The translations under genes and the position numbers were made by a program. From Bacteroidia bacterium (GTDB lineage Bacteria > Bacteroidota > Bacteroidia > J057 > JANWXU01): a stretch of DNA of 61,533 nt. The notes under the pieces are model-generated. The model was not told the origin of the DNA. It was given only the letters and a program-made list of their open reading frames with translations, and did not search any database. This document shows positions 33,543-58,243 of this stretch, piece after piece; the first letter of the stretch is position 1; each line of letters begins with the position of its first letter. The stretch covers positions 1-61,533 of the forward strand of contig JANWXU010000008.1 in assembly GCA_025057395.1 (NCBI GenBank), in the 5' to 3' direction.

Positions 33543-33605
33543 AAAGTGATAGGTTGAATAATTCTTTTTTAATTGCCTTTTGGAACCAACCAAAAGGTTT
33601 TTTTT

Positions 33606-36783: not shown

Positions 36784-37263
36784 ATGCCCTTCATTTTGAA
36801 CTACATAGGTATCTTTTTTATAATAGTTTTTTCTTGCTTGAGAGGTGAAGGATCTAATAATAATAATAATGAGCTACAATATAAGAGTTGGCTAAGGCAG
36901 TTTGAAGAAGCAGTAGTACAGAATCAAACCTCAATCTTGCATAACTATTTTGTTAGTGAGGCGGAAGCTTTGCAAATAGCCAATTTGTATAAACACTTAA
37001 TTCCAGAGATTGCTGTACGAGAGTATATTCCGTTGATGGCTAAGCAAATCCATTATAAGTCAGACTCTTCGTATCAAGTAGTTTTGAGTCGATTTGTATC
37101 TAAGGCACAGAGAGTGGAGTGGATTTCTTTTGAAGAAACAACCGAAAATAACCAAAAATTCGTAGCCCTAACAGTTTCTTTTGTAGTAGGAGGGCGTACC
37201 TATAAGCATAAATTAGCCGGTATTATTATTAACGATGAATTTAACATTTTAGAAATTCAGTAA
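36784..37263 (+). CDS. Small secreted protein of unknown function, copy 1
   Basis: A 159-residue protein with a hydrophobic N-terminal signal (FILNYIGIFFIIVFSCLRG; the Cys could be a lipidation site but the lipobox is poor). It has an Asn run (residues 25-29) and a mixed alpha/beta domain reminiscent of NTF2-like or DUF4783-type folds, but I do not recognise the family. The segment FVSEAEALQIANLYKHLIPE resembles FLEEAEADSIASYYMDLLPE of the next gene, and both end in a short beta-hairpin (AGIIINDEFNILEI / GAVLINGRLKIIHA), so the two are probably paralogues. First gene of the giant-protein unit. Confidence 0.72.
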   Translation: MPFILNYIGIFFIIVFSCLRGEGSNNNNNELQYKSWLRQFEEAVVQNQTSILHNYFVSEAEALQIANLYKHLIPEIAVREYIPLMAKQIHYKSDSSYQVVLSRFVSKAQRVEWISFEETTENNQKFVALTVSFVVGGRTYKHKLAGIIINDEFNILEIQ

Positions 37264-37275
37264 AGTGAACCTACC

Positions 37276-37752
37276 ATGCGAAATTTCTTTTTGATTATAA
37301 TTTTTCTTGTTGGAGGGGGGTTGGGCGGTAGCAAGGCGGATAACCGTTCGCAGCAGCTACTGCTAACTATGCAATCTATTTTAATGGCTGGAACAGAGGA
37401 GCAGGCATTCAATGCCTTTTTTCTAGAAGAGGCAGAAGCAGATAGTATTGCTTCTTACTACATGGATTTGCTACCTGAAGGAAGCCAAACTGATTCTGCA
37501 AAAAAGTATATTAAGCTTCTTTTCTTAAACCGCACTCATAAAGCTGCTGATTTTCTTCGTTCTCATTATTTTGGAGATCTTAGATATATACAAGAAATTT
37601 TCTCAGAAAATCAAAAAAAGTTAAGGTTACATTTTTATAGAATTAAAGCCGCTTTTGTTTCAGGTACTAAATCCGAACTACTTGAAATAGGTGCTGTTTT
37701 AATTAATGGGCGCTTGAAAATTATTCACGCTGAACCTTGGAAGGAGGAATAA
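37276..37752 (+). CDS. Small secreted protein of unknown function, copy 2
   Basis: A 158-residue exported protein with signal peptide MRNFFLIIIFLVGGGLGGSKA. It aligns by eye with the upstream gene along most of its length (same size, matching EAEA and LLPE segments, similar last strand pair), with low identity. It is 12 bases after copy 1 and 37 bases before the giant gene. The arrangement suggests a periplasmic or surface accessory role for the giant protein, but nothing in the sequence proves it. Confidence 0.7.
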   Translation: MRNFFLIIIFLVGGGLGGSKADNRSQQLLLTMQSILMAGTEEQAFNAFFLEEAEADSIASYYMDLLPEGSQTDSAKKYIKLLFLNRTHKAADFLRSHYFGDLRYIQEIFSENQKKLRLHFYRIKAAFVSGTKSELLEIGAVLINGRLKIIHAEPWKEE

Positions 37753-37789: not shown

Positions 37790-40700
37790 ATGAATAATTA
37801 TACTATTGTCACTAAATATAATCTTAAAATTTTTAATACTACGCTTATAGCAAAAGTTATTTTTATAATCTTTGCTTGTTTCTGGGGGGTGGGAAGTGGA
37901 GTAGAGGTAATTGCCCAGCCTAATAAATTAAATGATGGAAAGATAAGGCTGAGAATATGGGTAAAAAGAGCATGGTCAAATAGTCATGCAGGGAATCCTG
38001 TAAACGTGGATGTTCCTAATGTTTTGGATGACCCTCTTCCAGAGCTTTTTGTGCCTAACGTAGGAGGACTTTTACCGCAGCCAGTGTGGAAGAACCAGGA
38101 GTATGTTTGGAAAGTAAGAATTCGCCCCAATGCTGATGTAGACGGCAATGGTTGGACTCCGTGGGCTACTTTTCAATCTCCCTCAAATAATGCTAATCCC
38201 CCTGTTACACAATCTCCTTATAGTTGGACAGATGTTTTTTTGGGCAATCCTAATACCCTAATTTTTGACCATGTTTTTAATTCAACTTCTGTTCCTACCA
38301 AATTTGACTGGCAACTAGAGGCATTTGAAGAAGATTGCCGTACGAATACGGCTTTTGGATTATTGAATTCTTGTGGTGCTACTACGGGCGAGTTTGATGT
38401 GCGCTGTGGTTGTGCTATTAGTTGTTGGTCTTTTACATGTATTTATGGAGATGATGATAGAAGCTTTGGCGGTTTTGCTTTACCTAACCCACCGGTGAAT
38501 AACGGAGATACTCGTTATTTTAGGGGCGGAAGTGGACAAGCGGGAGATAGAAGGATTATTCAGGTAGAATCTGATAATGGAAGATTTGCCGTTCAATTTG
38601 AATATGAATGGTATTATGTACCTACTAATACTCCCGCTCAAAACGCTTTTCAGCATATTACTAACCAAGCTTCTGTACCTGCTACTCCTCCCTCTGTATT
38701 TCCCTTGGATACTATGTGTACTTCAATTGGTCATAATAATGACGGTTATGCTGATGGAGGAGGCACAGCGAATTCTCCTAATGTACATCGTTTGCGAGTT
38801 TGGATTGATAGTCTTTGGTGCGATAGCCGGGAGGATATTCCTTTTATAAATCCTGCGGATTTAGTTTTGATTTATCAGTTCAAGGACAATTTACAGAATA
38901 ATAACCAATATACTCCACCTGATTTTGGTGCTTATAATCAGTGTGCACCACCAGCTACATGTGCTGGATACATTTGGTTTAGTCAAAATAATCCCCAGTG
39001 GAATACCCAAAGTTCTTATACCTGTAATCTATATAATAATCCGGGTGGTGCTGCTAATAATCTTCCGCGTTTGGTGCTAGATAGGCAATATCCTGCAGGG
39101 CAAAATGCAGCCTCGAGTTTTCAATTTCGAATGGTAGCGTGGGAAGAAAGTTGCGATCAAACTTGTGGGTCTGTACAGGGTTCTACGCAGTGCGCAGGTA
39201 ATAGCTTTGGTTTAATGTACGGGGGACCCAATATTTTTCCACCCTTTCAGCTTTCCTGGAACTGGCTTAATTGTTTTGGGCAGTGGCTGGCTTGTACAGT
39301 AAATCCTGATAGAGACTATTCGGGGCCTCAGGTGCCTAATCAGCCTAATATGCCCCTGAACCAAATTATAAACATGGACTCTATTTTTTATAGAGCTTCC
39401 ATTCCTAACACTGATAATTTTATTACTATTCCTCTTAAGACTAATGGCTCTCAAAGTGGAAATTGGACAGTAAGGCTTAGGTACCGTTGGGATATTCAAG
39501 ATCCTATAATTACGCAGCAGCCGCCTACACAGGTGAGTCGATGTGCTAATTCTAATACCCCTACTCAGTTATGTGCTCAAGCAGAGTTTGGTACTTATTA
39601 TCAATGGCAAAAAGCAGTTCTTGATCCCTGCGGCAATGGCGTGGTTTGGCAAAATATTCCTAATGCTAATTGTCCATGTTACGATGTACCTGTAGGGGCA
39701 GCGGGTATAGAAACTTATAGACTTAGAGTAAGGAATAGAAACGGTTCAGGTAGTAAAAGTGCCACAGGTACTTGGTATGCTGAAACCTACACCCAGCCAA
39801 TAAAAGTAGCTACCTTGCCTTATGCGCCTCCAATTAGCAGTCCTGTATGTGGGGGAAGCGTGTTCGGGAATACGAGTGCAACTTTTAGTGTTTGTCCTGT
39901 TCCTGGTGCTACGAGTTATTCTTGGAGTGTAACAGGGCCGGGTACTGTGACTCCTAGCAGTGGTAGTGGTACTACCTTTACGGTTACTAATTTTGGTAAT
40001 ACTCCAGGTACTTATACTATTACTTTGACTGTAAATAGCACATGTGGTTCTGCTACAAGTACCTGTACAGTCGGAGTAGATACCATAACGGTATGTAATT
40101 ATATTTATGTTACGCCTAATGGTGTTAAAGCTAATGTAGGCAGTTTACAGTACCCTACTACTTTTGATGGAGCAATTCAAATAGCTAATTCTAATCCTAA
40201 TCGAAAGCATATCCGCATATTAAGTGGTACGTATAATAATGTGCCTAGAGTTACTCTTACTGCCAGCAATGTTATAATTGATGGAGGCTATCAAGTATGT
40301 GGATCTGTTTGGTGTAAGCAGAGTAATTTAAATGCTTCAACTATAATTAATTTTAATCCTGCAGAGGAAAATGTAACTATCAATAATCAATTGGTTGCTC
40401 ATAAAAGAGGCTTAGTTTTGGCAAGTACTGCTAATGGTACTAAAATTCAAGACCTTACAATTAATGTAGCAGGCTTTCAACCTAATGACAGAACTCCGGA
40501 AGGGCGAGGTAAGTCTGTTTATGGAATATATATCGATGGTGCCTCTAATTACAAAATAACTCGATGTGCAATTAACACCGGAAATGCTTCTACGGGAGCA
40601 AATGGAGTGAACGGTGGAAATGGTCAACCTGGAAAGCCGGGGGCAGCGGGTAGAAACAATTCGGGTACTTGTGATTGTATAGCGTGTGGTATTCCTGTGC

Positions 40701-43700
40701 CTGATCCTTCTAATCTGCCCAATAGCGTTTGCCAAAATCCCGATAACTTTGGGAGCGGTGGTTTAGGGGGTGAAGGGGGAGCAGGGGGCATAGGGGGTGG
40801 AGGGGCTCCGGGAGGGCAGACAGGTGATTCTGGCGGTACAGGAGGGATGGGGGGGCATGCTTCTAATGATAATACCAATGCGGGCTCGCCGGGTGCTAAT
40901 GGCCTTAATGGAGGCGGCGCAGGAGGTACTGGTGGTGCTGCTCCAGGAGCTCCACCCGCCTTTCAGTTAACTCCCTTAGTGCCCCAAGCTCAGTGTAATA
41001 CAGGAGGGGGTAATGGTGGTGCAGGGGCAGCAGGAGCAGCAGGTACTCCGGGTGCTAATGGTACAACTCCGGGCGGAGTAGTGGCTAATGGCTTTTATTT
41101 ACCCGATAAAGGTACAGATGGGCAGCCCGGTGGAGCTGGCAAAGGTGGCGGCGGTGGTGGTGGCGGCGGCCAGTCTCGTAGCTTATGCGTTGTAATGTAC
41201 CAGGGTCCGCAATTTTGTATCCCTTTTACGAACATTTGCTTTTATATTCCACTACCCTGCACTCCTAGAACTGGCGAATCGGGAGCTGGTGGTGGCGGCG
41301 GCGGCGGTGGTGGTGGCGGCGGCGGTGCAGGCTCGGGAGGATTTGGGGGAGGGGCTACTTATGCTATTTTTGCCTGGAATGCGGGTTCGGGAGTAATTAC
41401 AGATTGCTCACTAAACCCTGGTACCCCAGGTGCAGGAGGCACAGGAGGCACGGGAGGTACAGGTGGAGCAGGTGGAGCTGGCGGGGCGGGTGGAGCTAAT
41501 GTTTGCGGTACGGGTGCTCCAGCAGGTGCAGGAGGTGCAGGAGGTGCCGGTGGAGCGGGAGGAAACGGAGGTAACGGCGGAAACGGAAGTACGGGGCATC
41601 AGTATGCAATCTACAATGGGGGAAGCGCTACTATTACGGTTGCGGGTACCTCTAGTAGCTGCGTAGTTTTTACCCACCCTAATCCTAATCCTAACACTGC
41701 TAGTACGAGCTGTGGTTCTTTGCCTAATTGCCCCCAAATTACAGTGGAAACTAATCCTGCATGGTGCACAAATTCAGAAATTAGTTTCACCAAGGCTTCG
41801 GGAACGTGGGCTTCTTTAGGAGCAAATAGTGACTATACCCCTAATTTAACTTATCCCAATTCTACTTTTTGTAATCCGCATACTTCTTATACATCTGCTT
41901 CTTCGCCAGCAGTAGGGTATTATAGTAATGCTTCCATTATTGAAGGTAAAACTCCGGACTTAGGTACTTGCCAGTACTTAGATTTTGTACATGTGAATAC
42001 TTTAAGGAACCCTCCTATAATAAATATTAATGGGGCACCTGCTCTAGTACCGCCCCTAAGGCATAGGTTTTGTGGGCAAGCCTGTATTACTTTAACAGGT
42101 AATAAGAATCATCCTGGAATAGCTAAGGAATACTTCTGGGAAATTTCAAGAATTACGCCTACGTGCTCTGTAGTTATCTTAACTTCAAATGCAAAAGATC
42201 CGGGTAATGTTTGTTTAAATGACCCAGAGGTGTATCAAATTAAGTTCCAGGTAAAAGACGAATGTTGTGGTTGGTCGATTCCAGTGTATGCAATCATTGA
42301 TAATCGTCGTCCTCAAAAACCTACGGTGGTAGCCCCCGGACCCAGGTGCGGCCCGGGTATTGTGACCCTTACGGCTACTCCAGATGTTCCTTCTAATGGT
42401 ATTCGTTGGTATAATGCAGCTACTAATGCTTTTGAAGGTAACCAGCTTATACTTTCTAAAAATATCACGACGACTACTACATACTGCGCTGCCTCTGTAG
42501 ATGTTTCAGTACCTCCCCCTCCAGGGTGTGAAAGTAGTGATGTTACATGCGCTACGGCAGTAGTAAATCCCTTGCCAGGGGAGCCAAATATTCCTAATGT
42601 GGCACGATGTGGAAATGGAGAAATAACTTTTTCTGTTTTTATGTCTGCTCCCTCGGGTGATCAAGCATGTTTATACGATTTTTCCGGTATCACTCAAATA
42701 AGTTGTGATTTATCAAATCCTTATAATCTGACTACCCCACCTTTAACCCAAACGACTACTTACTGCATAAGAGCGGAATTTAGTGCTACCGGCTGTAAAA
42801 GCAATTGCAAGCCCGTAGTTGCCACTATTCATTCAATACCAAGTCCACCCATATCTAATAATATCCAAAAATGTGGAACAGGGTGTGTTACTTTTACTGC
42901 TTTTATGGGAGCTGTACAAGGTACTGTTATTCGTTTATATGATCATCCTACTGCAGGCAACAATATTGATTCTTCACCAGCAAATTTATTAACAGCTTGC
43001 AATGTTACTACGAATAGTACTTTTTACTTAGAGGTTTTCAATGCAAATACTGGCTGTGCTAGCCCACGCATACCAGTTTCGGTAGATATCTTAGGGCAGC
43101 CCGGTAATCCTACGGTTACGGCGACTAATGTGGCACGTTGTGGTCCAGGGTTTGTTACTTTTACGGTGAACATGGGAAATCCACCCGGAAACGTTGCTGA
43201 GCTATATCTAAACTCTAATGCCGCCGCTCCAATAGCTACAGACGATAGTTCTCCCTACGAATTAGCAGTACAAGCTACTGTTACGACCTCTTATTGTATT
43301 CGTGCCAAAGATTCGAACAATGGTTGCACAAGTAATCAGTGTGTGCCTGTTACTGCCACAGTAAATTTTATACCAGGACTTCCTACGGTAGCTAATGTAA
43401 GCAGGTGTGGCGCCGGAAATGTAACATTTACAATTGCCAATGCAGGCTTTCCTCCTGCTAATCGGTTCCTTTTGTACACACAACCTGCAGGAGGAACGCC
43501 TGTGGCTAGTGTCACTTTACCTCTTACTCAAATAACCACCAATGTAACAACGACAACTATTTTTTATATTGAATCTTTGAATACTTCAACTGGCTGTCAA
43601 AGTGCTAGTAGGCTTGCGGTAAGTGCTATTGTGCAGCCTGAGCCTATACTCACTTTAACTTCTTCTAATGTTGAAATTTGTGGTCCTGGTGATGTTACAT

Positions 43701-46700
43701 TAAATCCAAGTTTTGGTCCAGCCGGGGGGGATGAGGCCCAGCTATATGATGCTAATTGTAGTTTATTGATAACTAATGATAAAACTGCTCCCTATCAATT
43801 GAAAACGCCGTACGTAACGACAACTACTACTTTTGCTCTGAAGGCTAAAAATAACAGTACTGGCTGCGAAAGTAGTACCTGCCTTCCAGTGACCATTATC
43901 GTGAAACCTTTACCTATGCCTCCTACAGTTAATGATGTGGCTCGCTGTGGAATAGGAAATTTAACCTTTACAATCACTAATGTTCCTCCAGGTGGAACCG
44001 TATTTGTTTATAACCAGCTAGTAGGAGGCTCTCCGGTAGCAACAATTTCAGGACCTAACTATGAATTTCAGCTATCTAATCTAGCGAATACTACAACCTA
44101 CTACTTTGAAAATTATGATCCCCAAACCCAGTGCATGAGTGGTTCTCGTACGCAGGCAAAAGCAATTATAAATCCATTTCCTTCTAGAGCCACTTTGAGT
44201 AGCAACTCTATTAGTAGATGCGGTAGTGGAGAGGTTACAATCCCCGTAAATCTACAAAATCCAACTAATACACAAGTATTTTTAACTACTGCTATAGGGG
44301 CTCCGCCTGTACAAGTGGATGCCAATTCGCCATATGAGTTTAAAGTAGACGTTCAAAATGATGTAACTTATTATCTATGTACAGAAAATGTAGTTACGGG
44401 TTGTAAACGTGAAGACGACTGTATAGCAGTTACGATTTCAATTAGTCAATTACCCGCTTCTCCAGTACCCCAATCTCAGTCTGTACAGCGGTGCGGTCCA
44501 GGTTTAGTAACTTTTACCGTCAATTTGGGCGGTAGTGTAGGGGATGTTATTCGATTGTACGATGCTCCAGTAGGGGGCACCTTAAGGGCTGTTTCAAGCA
44601 ACGGTCCAGACTTTATTTTAACGCCTAATGGAGGAGTATTGCAAACCACTACAACTTTCTGGTTGGAGGCAGGCTCTTCTGCTACAGGTTGTGTTAGTAG
44701 TTCTAGGACTCAGGTGGTAGCGGTAATTCAACCTGTTCCTAATCCACCTTCAGTTACTAGCTCTAACTTATCTGTTTGTAGTGGTGGCGGAGGAGTAATT
44801 TCAGTTCAAACAAATGATCCTAATACGCAAGAGATTCGGCTTTATAATACTGCTAGTGCAAGTGTACCTTTACAAACAATTACCTTGCCCAACAATCAAT
44901 TCAATATCAATAATATATCTCAAAATACTACTTATTACTTGGAGAGTTTCTCAACGGTGACCTCTTGTAGAAGTACTACAAGAACTTCTATTTCAATAAG
45001 TGTTATACCTCCTCCTGAGCCAGCGACTCCCCCTAGTATTATTTCTAGTTGTGGCCCTGGAGAAGCAAGAATTACAATTGCAAATGTGCCTCCAGGAAAT
45101 GAAGTGCTAATGTATAATGAAATTTCAGGTGGTGTTCTACTAGAGTCTAGTATAGTAGCCCCCTATTCTTTTACTGTACCTATTGTAACAGGACAGGAAA
45201 AGTATTGTTTCGAAGTTCGAAATTTAGCTACTAGTTGTCTGAATGCTACGCGCAGGTGCACAGAGGCAGTTTTGCATCAACCTCCCGCTCCTCCTGCGGT
45301 ACCTCCTACTCTAAAGTTGTGTGGGGGAGGTATTCAACGATTTACAGTGACCATGCCTGCCAATAACTTAGTTTTAGAGGTTTATAACTCTCTTACAGGG
45401 GGGGCGCCTATTGCTATTGATGCTACTGAGCCATATACATTTGATACTCCCGAAATTCGAACTACTACTACTTTCTATTTACAGGCTTATCATCCTGTAC
45501 ATAATTGCCGAAGTCCACGTGTACCTGCTGTAGTTACAGTTTATCCTATTCCTTCTGCGCCTCCAGCGCTAACAGATATTAGGCGTTGTGGAAGTGGGGA
45601 TGTAAAATTTACAGCAAGCATGGGCTTACAAATTACGGGAGATAGCTTAAGGCTATATGATGCTGCACAAGGAGGTAATATGATTGCTCGTGCTAAAGGA
45701 CCTGTAGCTGAATTTACTATTCCTAATGTATCCACGCACTCTGTTTTCTTTTTAGAAAATTATAATTCTGCCACAGGCTGTGTAAGTGAGAGAACTCCTA
45801 TCTATGTTAAGATAAACAGAATTCCTTCACCGCCCTATACTGCTAATGCTGCTCGATGTGGTACAGGAATTGTCAACTTTTCGGCGACTTTGACAGGCGG
45901 CATGGGAGATGCTGTTCGTTTATTTACCCAACCCAGTGGGGATAGTCCTATTTATGTAGATTATACTGCGCCTTTTGAGGTATTAACGCCTGTTATTACC
46001 CAAGAAACTTCTTACTTTTTGGATGTTGTTAATTTGGAGACCCAATGTTCAAGCTCTCGTGTAGGGGTAACGGCTTTTATAAATCCTATTCCTTCACCTC
46101 CGGTAGCTATAGATTTTAAACGCTGCGGCTCAGGCCCTGCTTCTATTACTGCAGTATTAGGCAATGGAGGAGATGAGATTCAGATTTTTGAGAATGAGGT
46201 TGGGGGAGCACCCATCCAAGTTGATAATCAATCTCCTTATGTTTTATTTATTCCTAATGTAGAGCAAACAAGGTATTATTATGTTCAGAGCGTTGAGAGA
46301 GCAACAGGGTGTGCTAGCGGAAGGGTACCGGTAAAGGTAGAAATATTAGATATTCCCGAGGCGCCGATGATTTCTTCGGTAAGCCGTTGTGGAGCTGGCG
46401 TTGTTACTTTGACTATAAGTAATCTAGTACAAAACGGAGTTGTGAGTGTATTAAATGATAATTTCGAGCCTATAATTTTCGGCAATCCTGCCCCTAACCA
46501 AATCAGCATTCAGGTTACTAGTACTTCTCGATTTTATGTAGAGGTGATTAATAATTCTACCATCCTACACTGTAAGAGTTCAAGAAGTCCGGTGGAGGTT
46601 ATAGTTAATCCAATTCCTCCCTCCCCTACTGCTGCTAATGTAAGAAGATGTGGAGTAGGTTCTGTGCGAGTATTGATAAATGCTCAGAACGCAGCAAGGG

Positions 46701-49700
46701 TGGATATTTTTGATGCTCTATACAATCTGGTTGCTACTCAAAGTAGTGCTCCCTTTGAATATCTTACCCCTCAATTACAGCAAACCAGTGTATTCTGGTT
46801 GCAATCGACTTCTAATTATGGTTGTAAAAGTGAATTAGTATTTTTTAATGTAGAAATCGTTCCTAAGCCTCTTCCTCCTATTGTCGAAAATTTGTCACGA
46901 TGTGGACCCGGCTCCATTACCCTATCTGTACAGGGCATTGTTCCGGGGAATGTGTTAAGGGTCTATACTATTCATGATCTCCAAACTCCTTTTAGTGTTT
47001 TAACAAGCTGGCCCTATATAGTAGAGACACCAACACTTACAAGTAATACGGACTTATTCTTTATAGTACAAGATCCAATTACAGGTTGTAGTAGTGAAAG
47101 AACTATAGTAGGTTTAAAAATTCATCCTATCCCCTTAGCTCCTTTTGTTGAAAACTTGCAAAGATGTGGAGAGGGGCCTGTTACCTTTACTGTCTCACCC
47201 GCAGACAACCACACTAGTGCAATTCATGTATATGATCCTGAAATAAGCATGCTTACACCCGTAGAGGTATTGGCTCAATCTCCCTATCAATTTACGCGAA
47301 TCATTTCTTCGAATAAGACTTTTTATTTCGCTGCTGTTGATAAAGTCACCTCATGTAATAGTAATCTTGTCCTTGCACATGCCACTATTCTGGAGCCGCC
47401 GGCCAATCCAGTGGTTAATGTTGCTCAGGTACATCGCTGTGGTCCGGGGCAGGTTGTTTTAACAGTTCAAAGTTCACCAGGAGCTGAAGTACGTTTGTAT
47501 GCAAGTCAAACGGAAAACATGATTTTAGACCAAGATAATACTCATACACAGGGCTATTATCATCTTGTAACACCTTTCCTGAATGCGAGCACAACTTTTT
47601 ACATTGAGAGTTTCTTTACTTCTAACAATTGTCCAAGTAGGGTAGGGCGAGTAGCTGTGCCTGTTATTATTTATCCTTTGCCTGAGCCGCCTGTAGCAAG
47701 TAATCTTGAAAGGTGTGGTCCAGGGATAGTAACTTTTTCTTTGAATCCTACAGGCACCTCGGCTCAAACTTTAATAATGTACGATACTCCTATAGGGGGT
47801 ATTCCTATACAGAGCGTAAGTATTCCCCCGTATACAATTAGACATACGGTATTGCAAAATAGTGAATTCTATTTTGGGGCCGTGAATAATGAAACGGGGT
47901 GCCATAGTGCTTCTCGAACTAAGGTAAATATTAAATTAAATCCCGTTCCCTTACCTCCGAGTGTTGAAAATGTGAGTCGATGTGGAGACGGTATAGTAAC
48001 TTTTACTGTTTCTACAGCTGAGGCGGACAAAATTTTGGTATATGCTAATATTGATGGGGGGCAGCCAATAGGAAGTTCCACAGTGGCTCCTTATAGCTTC
48101 GCTGTTCCAATTTCTAGTTCTATAACCTCCTTTTATTTTGAAGCTGTTAATTCTACTACGGGATGTGCCAGTCCAAGGGCAGAGGCCTTAGCTATAAGGC
48201 AAGAAGTACCTTATCCTCCACAAAATGTTATAATTACGCGCTGCGGCCCGGGAGTCATTACTGTTACAGCGGTACAAAATTTTCCTCCTTTTGGAGACCA
48301 AATGCTTTTATATGAGTCTTCTGGGAATATTGTAATGGCAAGTGTAAATCGGCCACCTTTCATTTTTTCTATAAATATAACTACCACTACTACTTTCTAT
48401 TTAGCCGCAAGTGTTGCCGCAACAGGATGCCAAAGTGAAAAAGCGCCAGTTGTTATTAGAGTAGCTTCGAAGCCTGGTATTGTTAAAACTTCTTCCGTTG
48501 AACGTTGTGGCCCTGGTACTGTAACTTTCACTGCTTGGATGGGTTTTCCTGTAGGAACTTCAGTTAGATTATATAATGCTCCTGAGGAGGGAAATTTAAT
48601 TGCTGTTGATAGTGTTGGGCCACAGCCTTACTTATTATCAGTAAATGTAACCACTACTACAACTTTCTATGCTGCTGTAGATAATTTGGGATGTGGGGGA
48701 GATAGGATGCCGGTAGTGGCTTATGTGGAAAGGAAGCCTGCTATGCCTATTGCACCACCTGTTAGTCGCTGCGGCCCCGGCCGTGTAACGATAACCGCAA
48801 TCTTTGGAACACCTGCGGGATCCCAAATTAATTTATATGAAACTCCTGTAGGGGGAACTCCTATAGTTACAGATTTTAACAATCCTTTTGAGCTAATTAT
48901 ACCCTATGATATTACTAGTTCAGTTACCTATTACCTTAGCAGTGCAGTGGTGGGTGAAGACTGTGAAAGTGATAGGTTTCCTATTAAGATAAACATTCAA
49001 CCCCTACCTGTTAAGCCGGTTGTGGAAAGTGTTTCTCGTTGCGGTCCGGGGTCTGTAACTTTTAGCGTTTGGATACCAGATGCTTTGCAAGGAATGGTCC
49101 GACTTTATAATAGCCCCAGTGGAGCTCAGCCTATTGATATGCAGCCAAATCCTCCGTATCGATTTTTATCTCCACCGGTAACTACTAATACAACTTTCTA
49201 TTTCGAACATATCGATCCCTTAACTTTATGTGCTAGCGAAAGGGCGTCTGCCGAATTGAGAATTATACCAGTTCCGGGTCCTCCTACAGCTGTATCTGAG
49301 CCCCGTTGCGGTGCAGGGCCTGTTACGATTTCTGTAGCTCAAGGCCAGCCTACGGGTACTCAGTTTGTTTTATACAATAATGAACTCAATGAAATTAAAA
49401 AGGTGGATGCATCATTAAGTACCATAACAACCGATAATATAAGTAGTAGTACTAATTATTTTATTAGGGTAGTTAATACCCTAACTGGTTGTTCTAGTGC
49501 TATTGTGCTAGTTCCACTGACAATAAATCCTTTGCCCTTATCTCCCGTAGCTTCGGATGTGATACGATGTGGTGCTGGAGGAGCTACCTTTTCAGTAGAT
49601 TTACCCGATGGTTCTATAGTTCGTCTTTACGATTCAAATGACAATACTAGAGAGCTTATTGCAAGTGATAATAATGCTCCTTATTTGTTGACTATACCCT

Positions 49701-52700
49701 TTTGGGCCACAAGCCATACTTTTTATCTAGAAAGAGAGCTTGGTAGCACTGGTTGCAGAAGTGCCTTGCAACCAGTACGCTTACTTATAAATTCTATACC
49801 GGCTAAGCCCAACGTAGCAAATGTAGCTCGTTGCGGTTCCGGCAGCGTAACGTTTAGTGTTCAAATGGGATCGCCTCCGGGAAATCAAGTTTTTCTGTAT
49901 GCTGCTTCAAGTGGAGGGCAGTCTATTACTTCTGCTACTACCGCTCCTTATTTGCTTACTTCTCCTAATATTCAAAACACAACTACCTTCTATTTTAGCA
50001 GTTTTCATTCTCAAACAGGTTGTGAAAGTGAAAGAACCGCTGCAATTGCTATCATCAATCCATTACCACCTGCTCCAGTAGTCAATAATAATGTTATTCT
50101 ATGTGGTATAGGGCAGGCTAACTTTTCTGCTTTTGTAGAGCATTCAAGTGTAAACAGGGTAGTTCTTTACAGTGAGCCTAATTTACTTTCTCCTGTTAAT
50201 GAAACTTCTATTAAGCCTTTTATTCTAAAAACACCTTTGATTGAAAATAGTAGAACGTATTGGATTGCTGCTATGAGTGATCAGGGTTGTCCTAGTGAGT
50301 TTGTACCAGCTTCTGTTTTGGTGTATGCGCCTCCTGCTCCTCCTGTTTTTCAAACTGTAGAACGATGTGGTCCGGGGTTAGTTACTTTAACTTTTCGAAT
50401 GGGTTCTCCTGCAGGTAACCGAATTCTGTTATTTTCTCAGGAAACAGATGAGTCGCCCTTTATTACACTATCTCATTCTCCATATTTAGCACCGTTGGTG
50501 GTTAATGAAACAAAAGTTATTTATGCCCAAGTACTTAATTCTAATTTAGGGTGTGCAAGCATTAAGTTGCCGGTTACTATAAAAGTTAACCCAGTCCCCG
50601 AGCGACCTGAAATACAAAGTAATGCCCCTATTTGTAATGGAGAAACTTTAAAACTAAGTATTCTTTCTCCCAATTCAAATCACACTTATCTGTGGCGTGG
50701 CCCCGATGGATGGCAACAAATAGGTGCAACCGTTTATCGAAGTATTAGTGCAATCGAGTTAGGAGGAACGTACAGTGTGGTTGCTATTGCGGGCTCATGT
50801 ACTTCTGAAGCTGCTTCAGAGAATATAATAATTAGAAGGGGAATTCCAACCCCAGTCGCGGGGGCATACCATATTTACAATGACCCTACTGCCCATTGCG
50901 AGGGTAATGAACTTAATTTGGAAGTAAAAAATTATGATCAATTCCCGGCGGGTACAGAGTTTGTTTGGCGAGGACCTAATCAAACTACCGTTGCTACACA
51001 TCCTCATCCTGCCTTTCCTAATGCTTCTCCTAGTCTTTCGGGAACCTATGCTGTATATGCAGTTTATCAGGGCTGTACCTCAAAGGTAGATACCATACGA
51101 GTACGCATTTATCCGAAGCCCGCACCCCCTACCTATACAGGAAATACGATATTTTGTGAGGGTAGTTCAAACTTTTCACTCTCTATTCTTCCTTTGCCAC
51201 CTAGCGCTATGGAGTATTACTCCTATCAATGGCACGGGCCTAATGGTTTTTACCAAACCGGAACTACAGTATCTAGGCCCTCTATTTTGCCTAATGCGGG
51301 TACTTACACTGTAAGAACGGTAAGTAGTTATGGTTGCATATCAGAGCCTACTCATATCACTGTTGAAATTATACCTAGGCTTCCCTTGCCTACAATTGTG
51401 GGACCTAGTTCCATTTGCATGGGGCAAAGATTGAAAATTGATGCTTCGAGTAGCTTAAGTAATCCTATTTATTATTGGCGTGGACCTGGAGGATGGCAAT
51501 TTGTAGGTGGAGCTACTGTTGAACGAGAAAATGTTGTTTTATCAGATGGTGGTACCTATTCAGTATCTGTGGTTTCTAGAGGTTGTACTTCTGCACCTAG
51601 TACTATTAATGTTGAGGTAAGACGTGCGCCAGCTAAGCCCCCTATTTTCGATAATTCACCTATTTGCGCAGGTGATCGTCTAGTACTATCTACTACTCCT
51701 ATAGAAGGGGCATATTACTACTGGCAAGGTCCATGCTTTGAGCATAGCGGCGCCGATTATCGTATATTCCGAGAAGCTATTTTATCAAGGTGTGCTGGTC
51801 CTCATTCTTTGACAGTTATACAAAACGGCTGCTCTTCAGAAGTAGCAATAAAAAGTATCAGTATATATAATAAACCTATAATAAGCGTTACTAATGATGG
51901 TCCTAAGTGCCTGGGAAATGAAGTAACTTTAAGTGTACAAGGGGAGGATGGTCAGCCATTGCCACCAGGAACACAATTTATCTGGAGCGGTCCTAATGGC
52001 TTTAATGTGACTTCTACTTCTTCTACAGTAAATCGTCTCCTTCAAACCTCGCAAGATCAAGGTACGTACAGTGTAATTGCTGTAGTGGCTACCAATTGCA
52101 GTTCTGTTACGCAGACTACTTTAGTACGCACACAACCGGTACCTACCCTACCAACAGTTGTAAATGATGGTCCTAAGTGTGAGGGAGAAAGACTGACTTT
52201 TACTGTTACAGGCAGTCCAGGTGCTACCTATTTATGGCGAGGACCTAATGGTTTTAATGTAACTACTACCCAGACTAGTATCTCACGAACATCGGTTACG
52301 GTACAGGACGCAGGACAGTATAGTTTACAAATGGTAGTTCGAGGTTGTACTACGGTTGCCCAAATTTCTAGTGTAGTGATACGTCCTAGACCGCCGCTTC
52401 CTATTGCAAATGCCACTTCTCCTGTGTGTGAGGGAAATACTATTACTTTAAGTGCATCGGGAGTTCAGCCAGTTGTTACTTATCGGTGGGCGGGACCAGG
52501 AGCTTTTGTACGTACTACTACAGAAAATAACCTAACTCTTCCTAATGCTCAACCTGGTTCGTATGCTTATACTGTTACAGCTATTGTTGCGGGGTGTACT
52601 TCTCTACCTGCAGTAACTACAGTTGAAGTTTTGCAAGTACCGCTTGCTCCGAATATTACTGTGGATGGTGGTATACGCAAGTGTGTAAATGATATCTTGC

Positions 52701-55168
52701 AATTAAATGCTTCTATTGAGCAAGAGCCTGCCACTTATATTTGGAGTGGACCACAAGGGTATAGCGCTGTAGGAAACAGTGTAAATAAGCAGCTTTTATC
52801 TCCCCAAGAAGCAGGTTACTATGAAGTTTTTGCTATTTATCAATCTTGTACTACTGCAAAGAGCCGAATCTACATAAATGTGAATGATAGGCCTGCCCCT
52901 CCTTCAATTAGAGGTAATTCTCCTGTTTGTGATGGTGAAAGAATTCATTTAACCGCTATTACAGGGGATAATAGCTATGAATTTTATTGGAATGGTCCTG
53001 GTGGCTTTAGCTCTACAAGTTCTGAAATTAACCGAATAGCTAATAGTTTAAGTGCTGGTGCTTATAGTGTTGTAGCTATTCAGGGAGGCTGTACCTCGAG
53101 TGTATCAGTGCGAAATATCCAAGTAAATCCTGCTATTCCACTTCCTGAAGTTCGTTCTAACTCTCCCATTTGTACAGGTCAAACGCTAGAATTTACAGTA
53201 TTAGGCTCGCCATTAAATAATGCTCGCTACGAATGGAGTGGACCTAATAATCGGTTTTCTACTCAGTTCAAGGCTGTGTTTACGAATGTTACCACTAATG
53301 ATGCTGGTACTTATACTTTAATTATCCGCCAAAATGGATGTGCTTCTATACCAATTACTTTACCTGTCGAAATACGATCAACACCATCTGCTCCTGTAGC
53401 TACTAATACGGGTCCGGTTTGTGAAGGTCAGAGTTTAAATCTTGAAGCTAGTGCCGTGCCTGGAGCTACTTACTTATGGCGTGGGCCCCAAGGTTTTTCT
53501 GCGACTACACAAAGTGTTACCCTAAGTAATGTATTAACAAACCAGAGCGGTACTTACAGTGTGCAGGCAATAGTACAGGGTTGTACCTCAGGGGTTTCTA
53601 CAACACTTGTTAGTATCCAACCTAAGCCGGCAACGCCCCTAGTAAGTAGTAACCGTATTATTTGCTCAGGTAATACGTTAGAATTAACAGCAGTTGCTCA
53701 AAGTTTAGTGAGTGGTTACCAATGGGAAGGACCTAATGGTTTTTATGCTAGCAGTCAAAATGTGAGAATTGTTAATATAACTACTTTGGCTACAGGTACT
53801 TATGTGGTGCGTACTCAAAGAGGAAATTGTTTCTCTGACCCTGCGCGCATACAGGTTACTGTTTTACCGACACCGGAACCTGTACTAGTAGGAAATAATG
53901 GACCGCTTTGTCAAGGGCAGGAACTGCAACTTACCGCTTCTTTATTTGTAGGAGCTTCTTACCATTGGAGCGGGCCAGCTAACTTTACTTCTACTGAGCA
54001 AAATCCTATTGTAGGCAATCCTTCAACAGGTACCTATAGTGTGAGGGTAGTTTTAGGTCAATGTACTAGCCGCACTGTAGAAACCCGTGTAACCATTTTT
54101 GAAAGTCCTGCTGTACAAGTTTCCAACAATAGTCCAATTTGTGCTGGCGATAAACTTGAAATTCATGCTACCCATAATCCTGAGTGGGTCTATCAATGGC
54201 GCGGGCCTAACGGATTTTTACATAATCAAAATAGTATAGTAATTGAAAATGCTACTTTGCGTAATGCTGGTGTTTATACTTTAGAGGTTGCTAATAGTAA
54301 TTGTAGAAGTGAGCAGCTTTTAATTCAAGTAGCTATTCTTTCTCCTCCTCTAGTGCCTAGTGTTAGTCAAAATGGGCCGCTTTGCAATGGACAGGTATTA
54401 CAACTATTTGCTACTTCTACACCGGGAGCTGGTTACTTATGGAGAGGGCCAGGTGGATTTATTTCTACTTTACAAAATCCAATAGTTCAAAATCCTATAC
54501 CAGGTATCTATTCAGTAGTATCGATAATGAATGGTTGTACATCTCTCCAAGCTACGGAAACGGTAGTAATAAACAACGCTAATTGCTGTCCGGCTCCAGC
54601 AAGTCCTTTCGTGGAGGTTATTAATCCAACTACAGCAAAAATTAATTGGGCTAACACCTTAGAAGGTCCTATATGCTATATTGTTAGCTATGGACCTAAA
54701 AATCAGGATCCAAGTTCTTGGTTATACTCCAATCTTGTTCCCTACCCTCAAACTTCGCTAGTAATAGATAATTTAGATCCAACTATTGAGTATGGTGTAC
54801 AAATTCGTTCAAATTGTACTGCTTGTGCAGCCCGGAGTGGAAATCGTTCTGCAACTGTTGAGACAAGTTTTAGAACCATAAATGCCAAATCTTATGGTAA
54901 TTTTGAGGAGAAGATATGGGAAACGCAAGTATACCCTAACCCCAATAGTGGTCTATTTACTGTGCACTTACGTAGTAATTTTAGTGGAACGATTACACTT
55001 TCTTTGCGGGATTTGGGAGCTCGTTTAGTGTGGCAAAAGTCGTTCAATTTTGAAGAAGGTAATAGTATACTGCCGGTAGATTTGATGTATATTTCCCCAG
55101 GTATTTATACGTTTGAATTTCGTAATGAAGAATCCTCTAAAGTAGTAAAGTTGGTAATTAGCCGATAA
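37790..55168 (+). CDS. Giant (5792-residue) T9SS-exported repeat protein, probable adhesin
   Basis: Signal peptide 1-43 (ends GVEVIAQ). A module starting KIRLRIWVKRAW (about 51) recurs at VHRLRVWIDSLW (about 332). Then an Ig-like and a PKD-like segment (to about 765), a beta-helix-like part broken by Gly-rich blocks (about 770-1290), and a linker region. From 1519 to about 4270 there are 31 Ig-like repeats (period about 89) opening RCGPGxVTFTV and closing TGCxS. From about 4280 to 5595 there are 16 repeats (period about 83) with CxG, WxGPNGF and GCTS. An Fn3-like domain (about 5600-5700) and a T9SS type A sorting domain (VYPNPNSG, closing KLVISR) end it. Each repeat keeps two cysteines, so a disulfide per domain is likely. 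Ligand unknown. Confidence 0.9.
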   Translation: MNNYTIVTKYNLKIFNTTLIAKVIFIIFACFWGVGSGVEVIAQPNKLNDGKIRLRIWVKRAWSNSHAGNPVNVDVPNVLDDPLPELFVPNVGGLLPQPVWKNQEYVWKVRIRPNADVDGNGWTPWATFQSPSNNANPPVTQSPYSWTDVFLGNPNTLIFDHVFNSTSVPTKFDWQLEAFEEDCRTNTAFGLLNSCGATTGEFDVRCGCAISCWSFTCIYGDDDRSFGGFALPNPPVNNGDTRYFRGGSGQAGDRRIIQVESDNGRFAVQFEYEWYYVPTNTPAQNAFQHITNQASVPATPPSVFPLDTMCTSIGHNNDGYADGGGTANSPNVHRLRVWIDSLWCDSREDIPFINPADLVLIYQFKDNLQNNNQYTPPDFGAYNQCAPPATCAGYIWFSQNNPQWNTQSSYTCNLYNNPGGAANNLPRLVLDRQYPAGQNAASSFQFRMVAWEESCDQTCGSVQGSTQCAGNSFGLMYGGPNIFPPFQLSWNWLNCFGQWLACTVNPDRDYSGPQVPNQPNMPLNQIINMDSIFYRASIPNTDNFITIPLKTNGSQSGNWTVRLRYRWDIQDPIITQQPPTQVSRCANSNTPTQLCAQAEFGTYYQWQKAVLDPCGNGVVWQNIPNANCPCYDVPVGAAGIETYRLRVRNRNGSGSKSATGTWYAETYTQPIKVATLPYAPPISSPVCGGSVFGNTSATFSVCPVPGATSYSWSVTGPGTVTPSSGSGTTFTVTNFGNTPGTYTITLTVNSTCGSATSTCTVGVDTITVCNYIYVTPNGVKANVGSLQYPTTFDGAIQIANSNPNRKHIRILSGTYNNVPRVTLTASNVIIDGGYQVCGSVWCKQSNLNASTIINFNPAEENVTINNQLVAHKRGLVLASTANGTKIQDLTINVAGFQPNDRTPEGRGKSVYGIYIDGASNYKITRCAINTGNASTGANGVNGGNGQPGKPGAAGRNNSGTCDCIACGIPVPDPSNLPNSVCQNPDNFGSGGLGGEGGAGGIGGGGAPGGQTGDSGGTGGMGGHASNDNTNAGSPGANGLNGGGAGGTGGAAPGAPPAFQLTPLVPQAQCNTGGGNGGAGAAGAAGTPGANGTTPGGVVANGFYLPDKGTDGQPGGAGKGGGGGGGGGQSRSLCVVMYQGPQFCIPFTNICFYIPLPCTPRTGESGAGGGGGGGGGGGGGAGSGGFGGGATYAIFAWNAGSGVITDCSLNPGTPGAGGTGGTGGTGGAGGAGGAGGANVCGTGAPAGAGGAGGAGGAGGNGGNGGNGSTGHQYAIYNGGSATITVAGTSSSCVVFTHPNPNPNTASTSCGSLPNCPQITVETNPAWCTNSEISFTKASGTWASLGANSDYTPNLTYPNSTFCNPHTSYTSASSPAVGYYSNASIIEGKTPDLGTCQYLDFVHVNTLRNPPIININGAPALVPPLRHRFCGQACITLTGNKNHPGIAKEYFWEISRITPTCSVVILTSNAKDPGNVCLNDPEVYQIKFQVKDECCGWSIPVYAIIDNRRPQKPTVVAPGPRCGPGIVTLTATPDVPSNGIRWYNAATNAFEGNQLILSKNITTTTTYCAASVDVSVPPPPGCESSDVTCATAVVNPLPGEPNIPNVARCGNGEITFSVFMSAPSGDQACLYDFSGITQISCDLSNPYNLTTPPLTQTTTYCIRAEFSATGCKSNCKPVVATIHSIPSPPISNNIQKCGTGCVTFTAFMGAVQGTVIRLYDHPTAGNNIDSSPANLLTACNVTTNSTFYLEVFNANTGCASPRIPVSVDILGQPGNPTVTATNVARCGPGFVTFTVNMGNPPGNVAELYLNSNAAAPIATDDSSPYELAVQATVTTSYCIRAKDSNNGCTSNQCVPVTATVNFIPGLPTVANVSRCGAGNVTFTIANAGFPPANRFLLYTQPAGGTPVASVTLPLTQITTNVTTTTIFYIESLNTSTGCQSASRLAVSAIVQPEPILTLTSSNVEICGPGDVTLNPSFGPAGGDEAQLYDANCSLLITNDKTAPYQLKTPYVTTTTTFALKAKNNSTGCESSTCLPVTIIVKPLPMPPTVNDVARCGIGNLTFTITNVPPGGTVFVYNQLVGGSPVATISGPNYEFQLSNLANTTTYYFENYDPQTQCMSGSRTQAKAIINPFPSRATLSSNSISRCGSGEVTIPVNLQNPTNTQVFLTTAIGAPPVQVDANSPYEFKVDVQNDVTYYLCTENVVTGCKREDDCIAVTISISQLPASPVPQSQSVQRCGPGLVTFTVNLGGSVGDVIRLYDAPVGGTLRAVSSNGPDFILTPNGGVLQTTTTFWLEAGSSATGCVSSSRTQVVAVIQPVPNPPSVTSSNLSVCSGGGGVISVQTNDPNTQEIRLYNTASASVPLQTITLPNNQFNINNISQNTTYYLESFSTVTSCRSTTRTSISISVIPPPEPATPPSIISSCGPGEARITIANVPPGNEVLMYNEISGGVLLESSIVAPYSFTVPIVTGQEKYCFEVRNLATSCLNATRRCTEAVLHQPPAPPAVPPTLKLCGGGIQRFTVTMPANNLVLEVYNSLTGGAPIAIDATEPYTFDTPEIRTTTTFYLQAYHPVHNCRSPRVPAVVTVYPIPSAPPALTDIRRCGSGDVKFTASMGLQITGDSLRLYDAAQGGNMIARAKGPVAEFTIPNVSTHSVFFLENYNSATGCVSERTPIYVKINRIPSPPYTANAARCGTGIVNFSATLTGGMGDAVRLFTQPSGDSPIYVDYTAPFEVLTPVITQETSYFLDVVNLETQCSSSRVGVTAFINPIPSPPVAIDFKRCGSGPASITAVLGNGGDEIQIFENEVGGAPIQVDNQSPYVLFIPNVEQTRYYYVQSVERATGCASGRVPVKVEILDIPEAPMISSVSRCGAGVVTLTISNLVQNGVVSVLNDNFEPIIFGNPAPNQISIQVTSTSRFYVEVINNSTILHCKSSRSPVEVIVNPIPPSPTAANVRRCGVGSVRVLINAQNAARVDIFDALYNLVATQSSAPFEYLTPQLQQTSVFWLQSTSNYGCKSELVFFNVEIVPKPLPPIVENLSRCGPGSITLSVQGIVPGNVLRVYTIHDLQTPFSVLTSWPYIVETPTLTSNTDLFFIVQDPITGCSSERTIVGLKIHPIPLAPFVENLQRCGEGPVTFTVSPADNHTSAIHVYDPEISMLTPVEVLAQSPYQFTRIISSNKTFYFAAVDKVTSCNSNLVLAHATILEPPANPVVNVAQVHRCGPGQVVLTVQSSPGAEVRLYASQTENMILDQDNTHTQGYYHLVTPFLNASTTFYIESFFTSNNCPSRVGRVAVPVIIYPLPEPPVASNLERCGPGIVTFSLNPTGTSAQTLIMYDTPIGGIPIQSVSIPPYTIRHTVLQNSEFYFGAVNNETGCHSASRTKVNIKLNPVPLPPSVENVSRCGDGIVTFTVSTAEADKILVYANIDGGQPIGSSTVAPYSFAVPISSSITSFYFEAVNSTTGCASPRAEALAIRQEVPYPPQNVIITRCGPGVITVTAVQNFPPFGDQMLLYESSGNIVMASVNRPPFIFSINITTTTTFYLAASVAATGCQSEKAPVVIRVASKPGIVKTSSVERCGPGTVTFTAWMGFPVGTSVRLYNAPEEGNLIAVDSVGPQPYLLSVNVTTTTTFYAAVDNLGCGGDRMPVVAYVERKPAMPIAPPVSRCGPGRVTITAIFGTPAGSQINLYETPVGGTPIVTDFNNPFELIIPYDITSSVTYYLSSAVVGEDCESDRFPIKINIQPLPVKPVVESVSRCGPGSVTFSVWIPDALQGMVRLYNSPSGAQPIDMQPNPPYRFLSPPVTTNTTFYFEHIDPLTLCASERASAELRIIPVPGPPTAVSEPRCGAGPVTISVAQGQPTGTQFVLYNNELNEIKKVDASLSTITTDNISSSTNYFIRVVNTLTGCSSAIVLVPLTINPLPLSPVASDVIRCGAGGATFSVDLPDGSIVRLYDSNDNTRELIASDNNAPYLLTIPFWATSHTFYLERELGSTGCRSALQPVRLLINSIPAKPNVANVARCGSGSVTFSVQMGSPPGNQVFLYAASSGGQSITSATTAPYLLTSPNIQNTTTFYFSSFHSQTGCESERTAAIAIINPLPPAPVVNNNVILCGIGQANFSAFVEHSSVNRVVLYSEPNLLSPVNETSIKPFILKTPLIENSRTYWIAAMSDQGCPSEFVPASVLVYAPPAPPVFQTVERCGPGLVTLTFRMGSPAGNRILLFSQETDESPFITLSHSPYLAPLVVNETKVIYAQVLNSNLGCASIKLPVTIKVNPVPERPEIQSNAPICNGETLKLSILSPNSNHTYLWRGPDGWQQIGATVYRSISAIELGGTYSVVAIAGSCTSEAASENIIIRRGIPTPVAGAYHIYNDPTAHCEGNELNLEVKNYDQFPAGTEFVWRGPNQTTVATHPHPAFPNASPSLSGTYAVYAVYQGCTSKVDTIRVRIYPKPAPPTYTGNTIFCEGSSNFSLSILPLPPSAMEYYSYQWHGPNGFYQTGTTVSRPSILPNAGTYTVRTVSSYGCISEPTHITVEIIPRLPLPTIVGPSSICMGQRLKIDASSSLSNPIYYWRGPGGWQFVGGATVERENVVLSDGGTYSVSVVSRGCTSAPSTINVEVRRAPAKPPIFDNSPICAGDRLVLSTTPIEGAYYYWQGPCFEHSGADYRIFREAILSRCAGPHSLTVIQNGCSSEVAIKSISIYNKPIISVTNDGPKCLGNEVTLSVQGEDGQPLPPGTQFIWSGPNGFNVTSTSSTVNRLLQTSQDQGTYSVIAVVATNCSSVTQTTLVRTQPVPTLPTVVNDGPKCEGERLTFTVTGSPGATYLWRGPNGFNVTTTQTSISRTSVTVQDAGQYSLQMVVRGCTTVAQISSVVIRPRPPLPIANATSPVCEGNTITLSASGVQPVVTYRWAGPGAFVRTTTENNLTLPNAQPGSYAYTVTAIVAGCTSLPAVTTVEVLQVPLAPNITVDGGIRKCVNDILQLNASIEQEPATYIWSGPQGYSAVGNSVNKQLLSPQEAGYYEVFAIYQSCTTAKSRIYINVNDRPAPPSIRGNSPVCDGERIHLTAITGDNSYEFYWNGPGGFSSTSSEINRIANSLSAGAYSVVAIQGGCTSSVSVRNIQVNPAIPLPEVRSNSPICTGQTLEFTVLGSPLNNARYEWSGPNNRFSTQFKAVFTNVTTNDAGTYTLIIRQNGCASIPITLPVEIRSTPSAPVATNTGPVCEGQSLNLEASAVPGATYLWRGPQGFSATTQSVTLSNVLTNQSGTYSVQAIVQGCTSGVSTTLVSIQPKPATPLVSSNRIICSGNTLELTAVAQSLVSGYQWEGPNGFYASSQNVRIVNITTLATGTYVVRTQRGNCFSDPARIQVTVLPTPEPVLVGNNGPLCQGQELQLTASLFVGASYHWSGPANFTSTEQNPIVGNPSTGTYSVRVVLGQCTSRTVETRVTIFESPAVQVSNNSPICAGDKLEIHATHNPEWVYQWRGPNGFLHNQNSIVIENATLRNAGVYTLEVANSNCRSEQLLIQVAILSPPLVPSVSQNGPLCNGQVLQLFATSTPGAGYLWRGPGGFISTLQNPIVQNPIPGIYSVVSIMNGCTSLQATETVVINNANCCPAPASPFVEVINPTTAKINWANTLEGPICYIVSYGPKNQDPSSWLYSNLVPYPQTSLVIDNLDPTIEYGVQIRSNCTACAARSGNRSATVETSFRTINAKSYGNFEEKIWETQVYPNPNSGLFTVHLRSNFSGTITLSLRDLGARLVWQKSFNFEEGNSILPVDLMYISPGIYTFEFRNEESSKVVKLVISR
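40517..41650 (+). repeat. Beta-helix-like rungs alternating with glycine-rich blocks
   Basis: Within the giant gene, three related rung-like segments (YGIYIDGASNYKITRCAINTG, first 20 residues around codon 911; YAIFAWNAGSGVITDCSLN near codon 1192; YAIYNGGSATITVAG near codon 1274) are separated by long Gly-rich stretches (about 255 and 60 residues). The first block contains runs of 9 and 13 consecutive glycines. DNA here is much more G-rich than its surroundings. Confidence 0.75.
40766..40816 (+). other. G-quadruplex-forming motif with exact 9-base period
   Basis: G runs of 5 start at 40766, 40775, 40784 and 40793, followed by GGGG at 40802 and GGG at 40810 and 40814, separated by four-base loops (TGAA, AGCA, CATA, TGGA, CTCC). 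This satisfies the strict quadruplex rule on the coding strand, so also in the mRNA. It encodes part of the Gly-rich block. Confidence 0.8.
42341..50600 (+). repeat. Array of 31 Ig-like repeats, type 1, in the giant gene
   Basis: Counting the conserved RCGxG-type opening (variants KCGTG, ICGPG, VCSGG, LCGGG) gives 31 units between codons 1519 and about 4270; mean spacing of the first and last is 89 residues. Each unit ends TTTFYLEAxNxxTGCxS and is joined by a Pro-rich linker. DNA identity between units is low, so they are old duplications. Confidence 0.85.
50601..54582 (+). repeat. Array of 16 Ig/PKD-like repeats, type 2, in the giant gene
   Basis: Units open with SPxCxGxxLxLxA, carry YxWxGPNGF in the middle and GTYxVxxxxxGCTS near the end. 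Sixteen opening cysteines are counted from codon 4282 to 5532, period about 83 residues. The type is clearly distinct from the 31 units before it. Confidence 0.85.
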
Positions 55169-55182
55169 TATTCTTTAAATAT

Positions 55183-55215
55183 AAAAGCTACCCTCTCTTT
55201 AAGAGGGTAGCTTTT
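55183..55215. terminator. Bidirectional terminator between the giant gene and cas2
   Basis: AAAAGCTACCCTCT (55183-55196), a CTTTA loop and AGAGGGTAGCTTTT (55202-55215) form a 14-bp stem with T-tails in both directions, between two convergent transcription units. Confidence 0.92.
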
Positions 55216-55244
55216 TGTTTTAGTTAAGTATAGTTATAGTTGTT

Positions 55245-56534: not shown

Positions 56535-56548
56535 AGAGCAAAAGAATT

Positions 56549-57064
56549 TTATTCATCGGCATAACAAAATTCATAGTAGGCACATTTTTTACAGAAAGGT
56601 TTATTTACTACAGGAGGACATTGCTTTGAATTTCGGGTTTTAATTACCTCTTCCATCATTTTATTCAAAATTGGAATATCTTCTGGAATCAAAGTTACAA
56701 TTTGAGTTTGGTGGAAGCGGGGATATTCTAGAATCCCCGTCCATTGCTGAAAGCCGTATTGAGAAAGCACATAAAGGTAAAATTTAAGCTGCCAGATATG
56801 AGCACTTTGAAAAGCAGGGCTACGCTTGATCTCGCGTACAGTTTTGCTTTGTGCGTCTAGATAATCAATTTTAATTCTAGCAATAGCCAGGCCCTGAAAT
56901 TTCTTTTTTCTTCGGGTGTAGGCGTACTCTTCTAAGATACGTCCTTGTTGTACAAGATCGCTGAACTTTTCAAGCTGTATACCGTGCTGAAAAAGCCAAA
57001 GTCTTCTTTTACAGCTTGCTAAGTAAGAAATTTCTGTACCTGAAACAAGCTCAAATAGTTGCAT
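56549..57064 (-). CDS. cas4: CRISPR-associated exonuclease Cas4
   Basis: A 171-residue RecB-like Fe-S nuclease of adaptation, trimming prespacers and helping choose the PAM. The iron-sulfur cysteines are SCKRRLW near the N-terminus and PFCKKCAYYEFC at the C-terminus. The nuclease core shows REIKRSPAF (catalytic Glu-Lys) and HIWQLKFYLYVL (QxxxY motif). It starts one base inside the cas7 stop, so translation is coupled. Confidence 0.93.
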   Translation of the reverse strand: MQLFELVSGTEISYLASCKRRLWLFQHGIQLEKFSDLVQQGRILEEYAYTRRKKKFQGLAIARIKIDYLDAQSKTVREIKRSPAFQSAHIWQLKFYLYVLSQYGFQQWTGILEYPRFHQTQIVTLIPEDIPILNKMMEEVIKTRNSKQCPPVVNKPFCKKCAYYEFCYADE

Positions 57065-58209: not shown

Positions 58210-58243
58210 AATTTTGATGTTTTTTATGTTTTAAAAAAATAAT

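Follow-up and report, generated by a model that had tools for sequence, protein, structure and literature searches.

A predicted T9SS-exported protein of 5792 residues in a Bacteroidia bacterium carries two subtypes of Ig-like repeat, joined at a landmark common to about 20 paralogues

A stretch of 61,533 nucleotides from a Bacteroidia bacterium (assembly GCA_025057395.1, contig JANWXU010000008.1; the whole stretch is referred to here as the window) carries one gene, at 37790..55168 of the + strand, whose product changes abruptly from one type of Ig-like repeat to another. The locus raises the questions of whether so long a frame is a genuine gene, how its two repeat arrays are related, and what such a protein could do.

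The reading frame and its surroundings

The frame comprises 5792 codons with no internal stop. Read from its N-terminus, the predicted protein begins with a probable signal peptide and a duplicated module. A PKD domain comes next, then a probable beta-helix accompanied by Gly-rich segments, 31 Cys-paired repeats of type A and 16 repeats of type B; the chain closes with a borderline Fn3-like domain and a sorting tail of T9SS type A. The original prediction of a single secreted repeat polypeptide with two distinct Ig-like arrays and a C-terminal T9SS signal is supported. That prediction had itself raised the possibility that the frame is an assembly artefact of shorter genes, which is unlikely. 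Codon usage is native (GC3 0.263, against 0.27-0.32 in the neighbouring genes), no pair of units is near-identical, and the architecture recurs on many other contigs, and on these grounds an artefact was rejected. The DNA identity between units has a mean of 0.44 and a maximum of 0.55, which argues that the array is old and that its collapse or multiplication by the assembler is unlikely. A terminator-like hairpin (55176..55222, + strand; 21-bp arms, 86% complementary, with a T-rich 3′ side) starts 8 bases past the stop codon.

Directly upstream, on the same strand, are two genes for small secreted-looking proteins of 159 aa (36784..37263) and 158 aa (37276..37752), the second of which stops 37 bp short of the start of the giant. 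They are paralogues (23% identity, E 2e-8), and no further copy was found in their own genome. An orthologous giant in another genome (L073 in G018) also has a secreted-looking ORF, of 179 aa, directly upstream. Its relation to the small genes of the window is uncertain, with a score barely above that of shuffled controls, and a conserved upstream partner of the giant is suggestive only. Farther out, a tyrosine recombinase gene of the phage integrase family is located upstream at 33573-34499, and a type I-B CRISPR-Cas locus (cas1b, cas4b, cas7b, cas8b and the cas3 helicase) occupies 55527-61511 of the - strand and reaches the window edge.

Head, arrays and sorting tail

Residues 1-43 (37790..37918) are probably a Sec signal peptide, as judged from a hydrophobic stretch with VIAQ at its end. 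Two copies of a module follow, residues 46-277 (37925..38620; conserved in L070, L071 and L073) and residues 328-567 (38771..39490). Aligned with hhalign, the copies gave a probability of 95.5 and an E-value of 1.5e-8, whereas none of 40 column-shuffled controls exceeded a probability of 4.2, and hence the duplication that had been proposed is confirmed. A PKD_6 domain (residues 693-758, 39866..40063) scored 29.2 bits, over a cut-off of 25. Residues 769-930 (40094..40579) had no match in Pfam and probably form a right-handed beta-helix: the motif IYVxPxG...I.I.xGTY...I.GGY is kept in relatives, and about residues 800-930 were modelled as all strands with a pLDDT mostly of 70-86. The Gly-rich stretches (residues 931-1276, 40580..41617) are broken up by beta-helix-like rungs and peak at 53 Gly per 100 residues at positions 1167-1266. 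From the beta-helix/Gly segment of the original prediction, the Gly-rich part is therefore real, and the beta-helix is backed by a motif and a model of moderate confidence. Over the whole head, the mean pLDDT was 44.7 and the model was poor outside the PKD domain and the beta-helix; its PDB matches, scattered among Ig and adhesin folds with low TM-scores, were set aside.

Head residues 1-680 have no paralogue elsewhere in the genome, and the single match to the head in this genome is an 88-residue stretch around the PKD domain, 34% identical, on contig C167. The head is conserved over ~900 residues, with 28-29% identity, in giants of two genomes from other families of the order (G001 and G018). 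These giants lack the array of 31 A and 16 B units, and their repeat regions are different and sparse. Hence, head and stalk are separable and evolve separately.

The A array (residues 1503-4266, 42296..50587) and the B array (residues 4267-5597, 50588..54580) contain exactly the 31 and 16 units originally counted. Units are spaced at 89.1 ± 1.9 aa in A and at 83.3 ± 3.2 aa in B, and the mean amino-acid identity between units is 0.30 and 0.31 within the two arrays. Two cysteines and a W-x-G-P motif are present in 16 of the 16 B units. With a cut-off of 27.3 bits, the Pfam family Ig_7 (PF19081; Ig-like domain, CHU_C associated) matched the A units with 652 bits over 30 stretches, and residues 4234-5792, nearly all of them B, with 168 bits over 9 stretches; the B region was also matched by PKD_6, Ig_2 and Ig_3. 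The A units are then clear members of Ig_7 and the B units weaker ones. When the A and B profiles were aligned with hhalign, 81 columns including both cysteines were matched (E 2.2e-6, probability 89), by which unrelated repeat families were ruled out. Since the profiles are homologous along their length, A and B are two subtypes of one Ig-like superfamily. The predicted switch between two distinct arrays thus stands, and it is abrupt; the proposal that they belong to different families is not supported, and one known family, Ig_7, extends over both, more weakly over B. The best score per unit against Ig_7 was at most 65 bits in this genome and up to 105 bits in other Bacteroidia, so that A is a divergent subtype. 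A literature search on PF19081, with most subscription journals outside its reach, found no paper.

The low DNA identity between units had been taken as a sign of selection on each unit. This argument is weak alone, and better ones are the conservation by position in B (see below) and the retention of both cysteines across the genome, in 98-100% of units (786 A, 651 B).

The B array is followed by an Fn3-like domain (residues 5606-5677, 54605..54820), borderline at 25.1 bits with a cut-off of 25, and by a T9SS type A C-terminal sorting domain (54929..55159) that scored 36-41 bits with PF18962 (cut-off 27) and 26.2 bits with TIGR04183 (cut-off 23). Both domains had been predicted. Proteins with a type A sorting domain are exported via the SprA translocon and become attached at the cell surface by the C-terminus, and the genome contains an sprA gene (SprA_N 421 bits, in a 2495-aa frame). 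Another gene of the window (23340-24506) has a T9SS sorting tail (43 bits), and the whole genome has at least 150 such tails (248 candidates), a number that is high and within the usual range for its order.

SprB of Flavobacterium johnsoniae is a giant surface protein exported by the T9SS. We considered whether the protein is an adhesin of this type, moved along the surface by a gliding motor, as a very large T9SS cargo in a Bacteroidota genome with SprA might be. SprB is a type B CTD cargo, whereas the tail here is of type A; moreover, a Pfam scan gave no SprB-repeat match at E-values up to 1, and the SprB-type adhesin, a very improbable reading, was discarded on the absence of these repeats.

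A join conserved by position among many giants

The genome (4.08 Mb in 244 contigs, 96% complete, 0.3% contamination) contains at least 39 ORFs of 2,911-7,915 aa, which amount to 181,234 aa or 13.3% of the genome. In these ORFs, HMMs built from the window called 1,475 A or B units; the 39 giants were picked for frame size, and proportions given here apply to giants only. First-look counts of Ig_7 sites, which are approximate candidates, reached 1,825 in this genome and at most 321 in each of 294 other genomes of the class, the 295 genomes being a sample of a larger group. The Ig-domain load is therefore more than fivefold that of any other sampled member. The heads of other giants carry DUF7948 with an SBBP propeller, IgGFc_binding, DUF2341, GEVED or PKD domains. 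The 7915-aa giant (C167:9745-33567; L056, L057) has 69 B units and a head of DUF7948 plus an SBBP beta-propeller with sequence similarity to CylK in the PDB. Five giants with A units only (L065, L061, L053, L055 and L049) have in common a head of ~975 aa that is 32-50% identical among them; their A arrays, too, largely line up in register. In another genome of the class (G316, contig C2 near 81307), a B-type match lies within a frame that stays open for 27,093 codons.

The size of this repertoire, seemingly beyond the needs of individual adhesins, would suit arrays that serve mainly as a cell-wall or sheath scaffold, a matrix or S-layer-like coat built of many giants whose heads bind nothing specific. 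A scaffold fits less well with the diversity of the heads, several of which have recognisable domains, and with the conservation of the window protein's head across families while its stalk is not conserved; we hold it improbable.

The order of units was compared among the giants. Of the 19 that have a block of five or more A units and one of five or more B units, 18 show an A block followed by a B block, with B last; these proteins are related and do not count as independent evidence one by one. In the exception (C88:5683-18210), the C-terminal end runs into a stretch of N. The second B unit after the join (50852..51109 in the window, + strand) bears a signature, C-x-G-x-x-[LFI]-x-L-x-[VILA]-x-N..., that occurs in the window protein and 15 others. 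It is always at position 2, and the remaining B units all lack it. Because this motif was derived from position-2 units, leave-one-out profiles were used to avoid circularity. For 15 of 20 held-out proteins, the true B2 outranked every other B unit of that protein (0.99 expected; P about 3e-16), and in the window protein B2 ranked first of 16. Top ranks at other B positions numbered 9 for B3, 7 for B8 and 6 for B1, and at the A positions examined 0-4 of 16 came top, against an expectation of 0.61, so that most were no better than chance.

The register of whole arrays was also analyzed. In 26 comparisons with 200 permutations of unit order each, the B array of the window protein shared its register with the B arrays of five giants (C213, C164, C178:32063, C180 and C182), for each of which 0 of 200 permutations reached the observed score. 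The window A array was convincingly in register with that of no other giant, and a recent whole-gene duplication was accordingly rejected as the origin of its 31 A units. Two of the other giants (C222 and C180) likewise have 31 A units, and their A arrays are in register with each other. None of the giants whose B arrays are in register with that of the window protein has a head resembling its head; IgGFc_binding and DUF2341 are among the domains in their heads. We conclude that the A-to-B switch is a position-conserved landmark common to about 20 paralogues with unrelated heads. The stalk with a differently built proximal part that had been suggested is supported.

A proposed surface filament and its comparison with known systems

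We favour, as the probable reading, a T9SS-exported, outer-membrane-tethered surface filament of head, stalk and base that serves in adhesion or capture. Its route of export, its anchoring and orientation, its length and its role in adhesion are inferred as follows. Sec would bring the protein into the periplasm, and the T9SS would take it across the outer membrane; its type A sorting domain would be cut off and the protein tethered by its C-terminus, as other type A cargo is. Since the type A domain would fix the C-terminus at the surface, the 16 B units would form a membrane-proximal base and the 31 A units an outer stalk that ends in the head. At 3.5-4 nm per domain, the 47 Ig-like domains would span roughly 150-190 nm if extended. 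The duplicated module, PKD domain, beta-helix and Gly-rich region may then make up an exposed head, whose binding partner would be a surface, a polymer or another cell. Adhesion or capture is the likeliest function of the protein; as the head is poorly modelled outside the PKD domain and beta-helix, binding of a ligand by the head is a guess, and a Gly-rich head with a beta-helix could have an enzymatic or a structural role instead of an adhesive one. Across the repertoire, different heads would ride on related Ig-like stalks, with the A-to-B join anciently common to them.

Grappling hook protein A (GhpA) is a 5898-aa protein of the predator Aureispira sp. CCB-QB1 (Lien et al. 2024, Science eadp0614, as cited in PMC12374797 and PMC12421860). 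GhpA is oligomeric: its eight cryoEM entries (9flp, 9fls, 9flu-9fly and 9g8b) contain 56 chains, about 7 per entry. Compared with GhpA, the B array scored 1,501 bits, distributed over 15 stretches of about GhpA residues 1117-4900, most of the filament; the A array gave no match at 1e-3, and residues 1-1500 none at E-values up to 1. At the level of sequence, the B units are homologues of the GhpA filament domains, and the A array and head are without such a match. A model of the join (A30-A31-B1-B2), built from 20 paralogous joins of this genome, consists of four Ig-like domains with a mean pLDDT of 93.2. All eight of its top PDB matches come from GhpA, with E-values from 2.9e-20 to 2.7e-15 and a query-normalised TM of 0.40-0.64, and they cover fragments of neck, base and filament.

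These likenesses, together with the close total length and a T9SS in the genome, raise the possibility that the protein is a subunit of an oligomeric, GhpA-like hook filament that seizes cells in an ixotrophy-like predation. Against it, 31 of the 47 units and the head lack a sequence match to GhpA. Matches to the join profile, mostly to its B part, were found in 283 of 395 class genomes at 1e-10, and repeat homology is therefore not specific to the hook. An ixotrophy apparatus has a contractile injection system next to the hook. A contractile sheath was also sought, and neither VipB nor Phage_sheath_1 was detected in the 96%-complete genome; VipB is an insensitive test of a contractile injection system, its profile matching 0 of 22 genomes of the order, and Phage_sheath_1 is present in 8 of the 22. 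With B-like repeats widespread, no GhpA match in the head or A array, and no injection system detected, we do not file the protein as a grappling hook protein, and regard a hook subunit as doubtful. An extension of this idea is that the bacterium displays filaments of the grappling-hook type by the dozen, which would combine individual heads with a single conserved base and stalk-to-base joint; they would make a modular system for capture, encoded by at least an eighth of the genome. We offer it as a tentative, rather unlikely proposal.

Whether as the adhesion or capture filament that we favour or otherwise, the family is of wider interest. Giant repeat proteins are usually studied singly, and here at least 39 occur in one genome, with a join of two repeat subtypes that is positionally conserved as heads and outer stalks vary. 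A literature search on giant Ig-repeat T9SS proteins, in a library without most subscription journals, turned up no description of a genome like this one. The many giants and the conserved join make two questions testable: how long tandem arrays preserve the identity of each repeat instead of homogenising, and whether a GhpA-homologous base is a general assembly or anchoring platform for exchangeable heads.

SprB and the protein described here are both giant T9SS cargo, but differ in repeat family and in type of sorting domain. The adhesin of Mobiluncus mulieris (7651 residues, 51 Ig domains) is likewise a surface protein of tandem Ig-like domains; unlike the window protein, it is by far the largest of its proteome and not one of many (PMC10619420). 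Giant1-5 of Apilactobacillus kunkeei are surface proteins of 3,000-8,000 aa that make up as much as 6% of the genome, and four of them have a beta-solenoid N-terminus (PMC12863079). They resemble the present case in being several giant surface proteins; A. kunkeei is a lactic acid bacterium with five such genes, compared with at least 39 here. GhpA is alike in size (5898 and 5792 aa), in its long Ig-like array homologous to B, and in coming from a Bacteroidota with a T9SS. It differs in lacking any match to the A array or the head, and the likeness is drawn here from sequence and a structural model.
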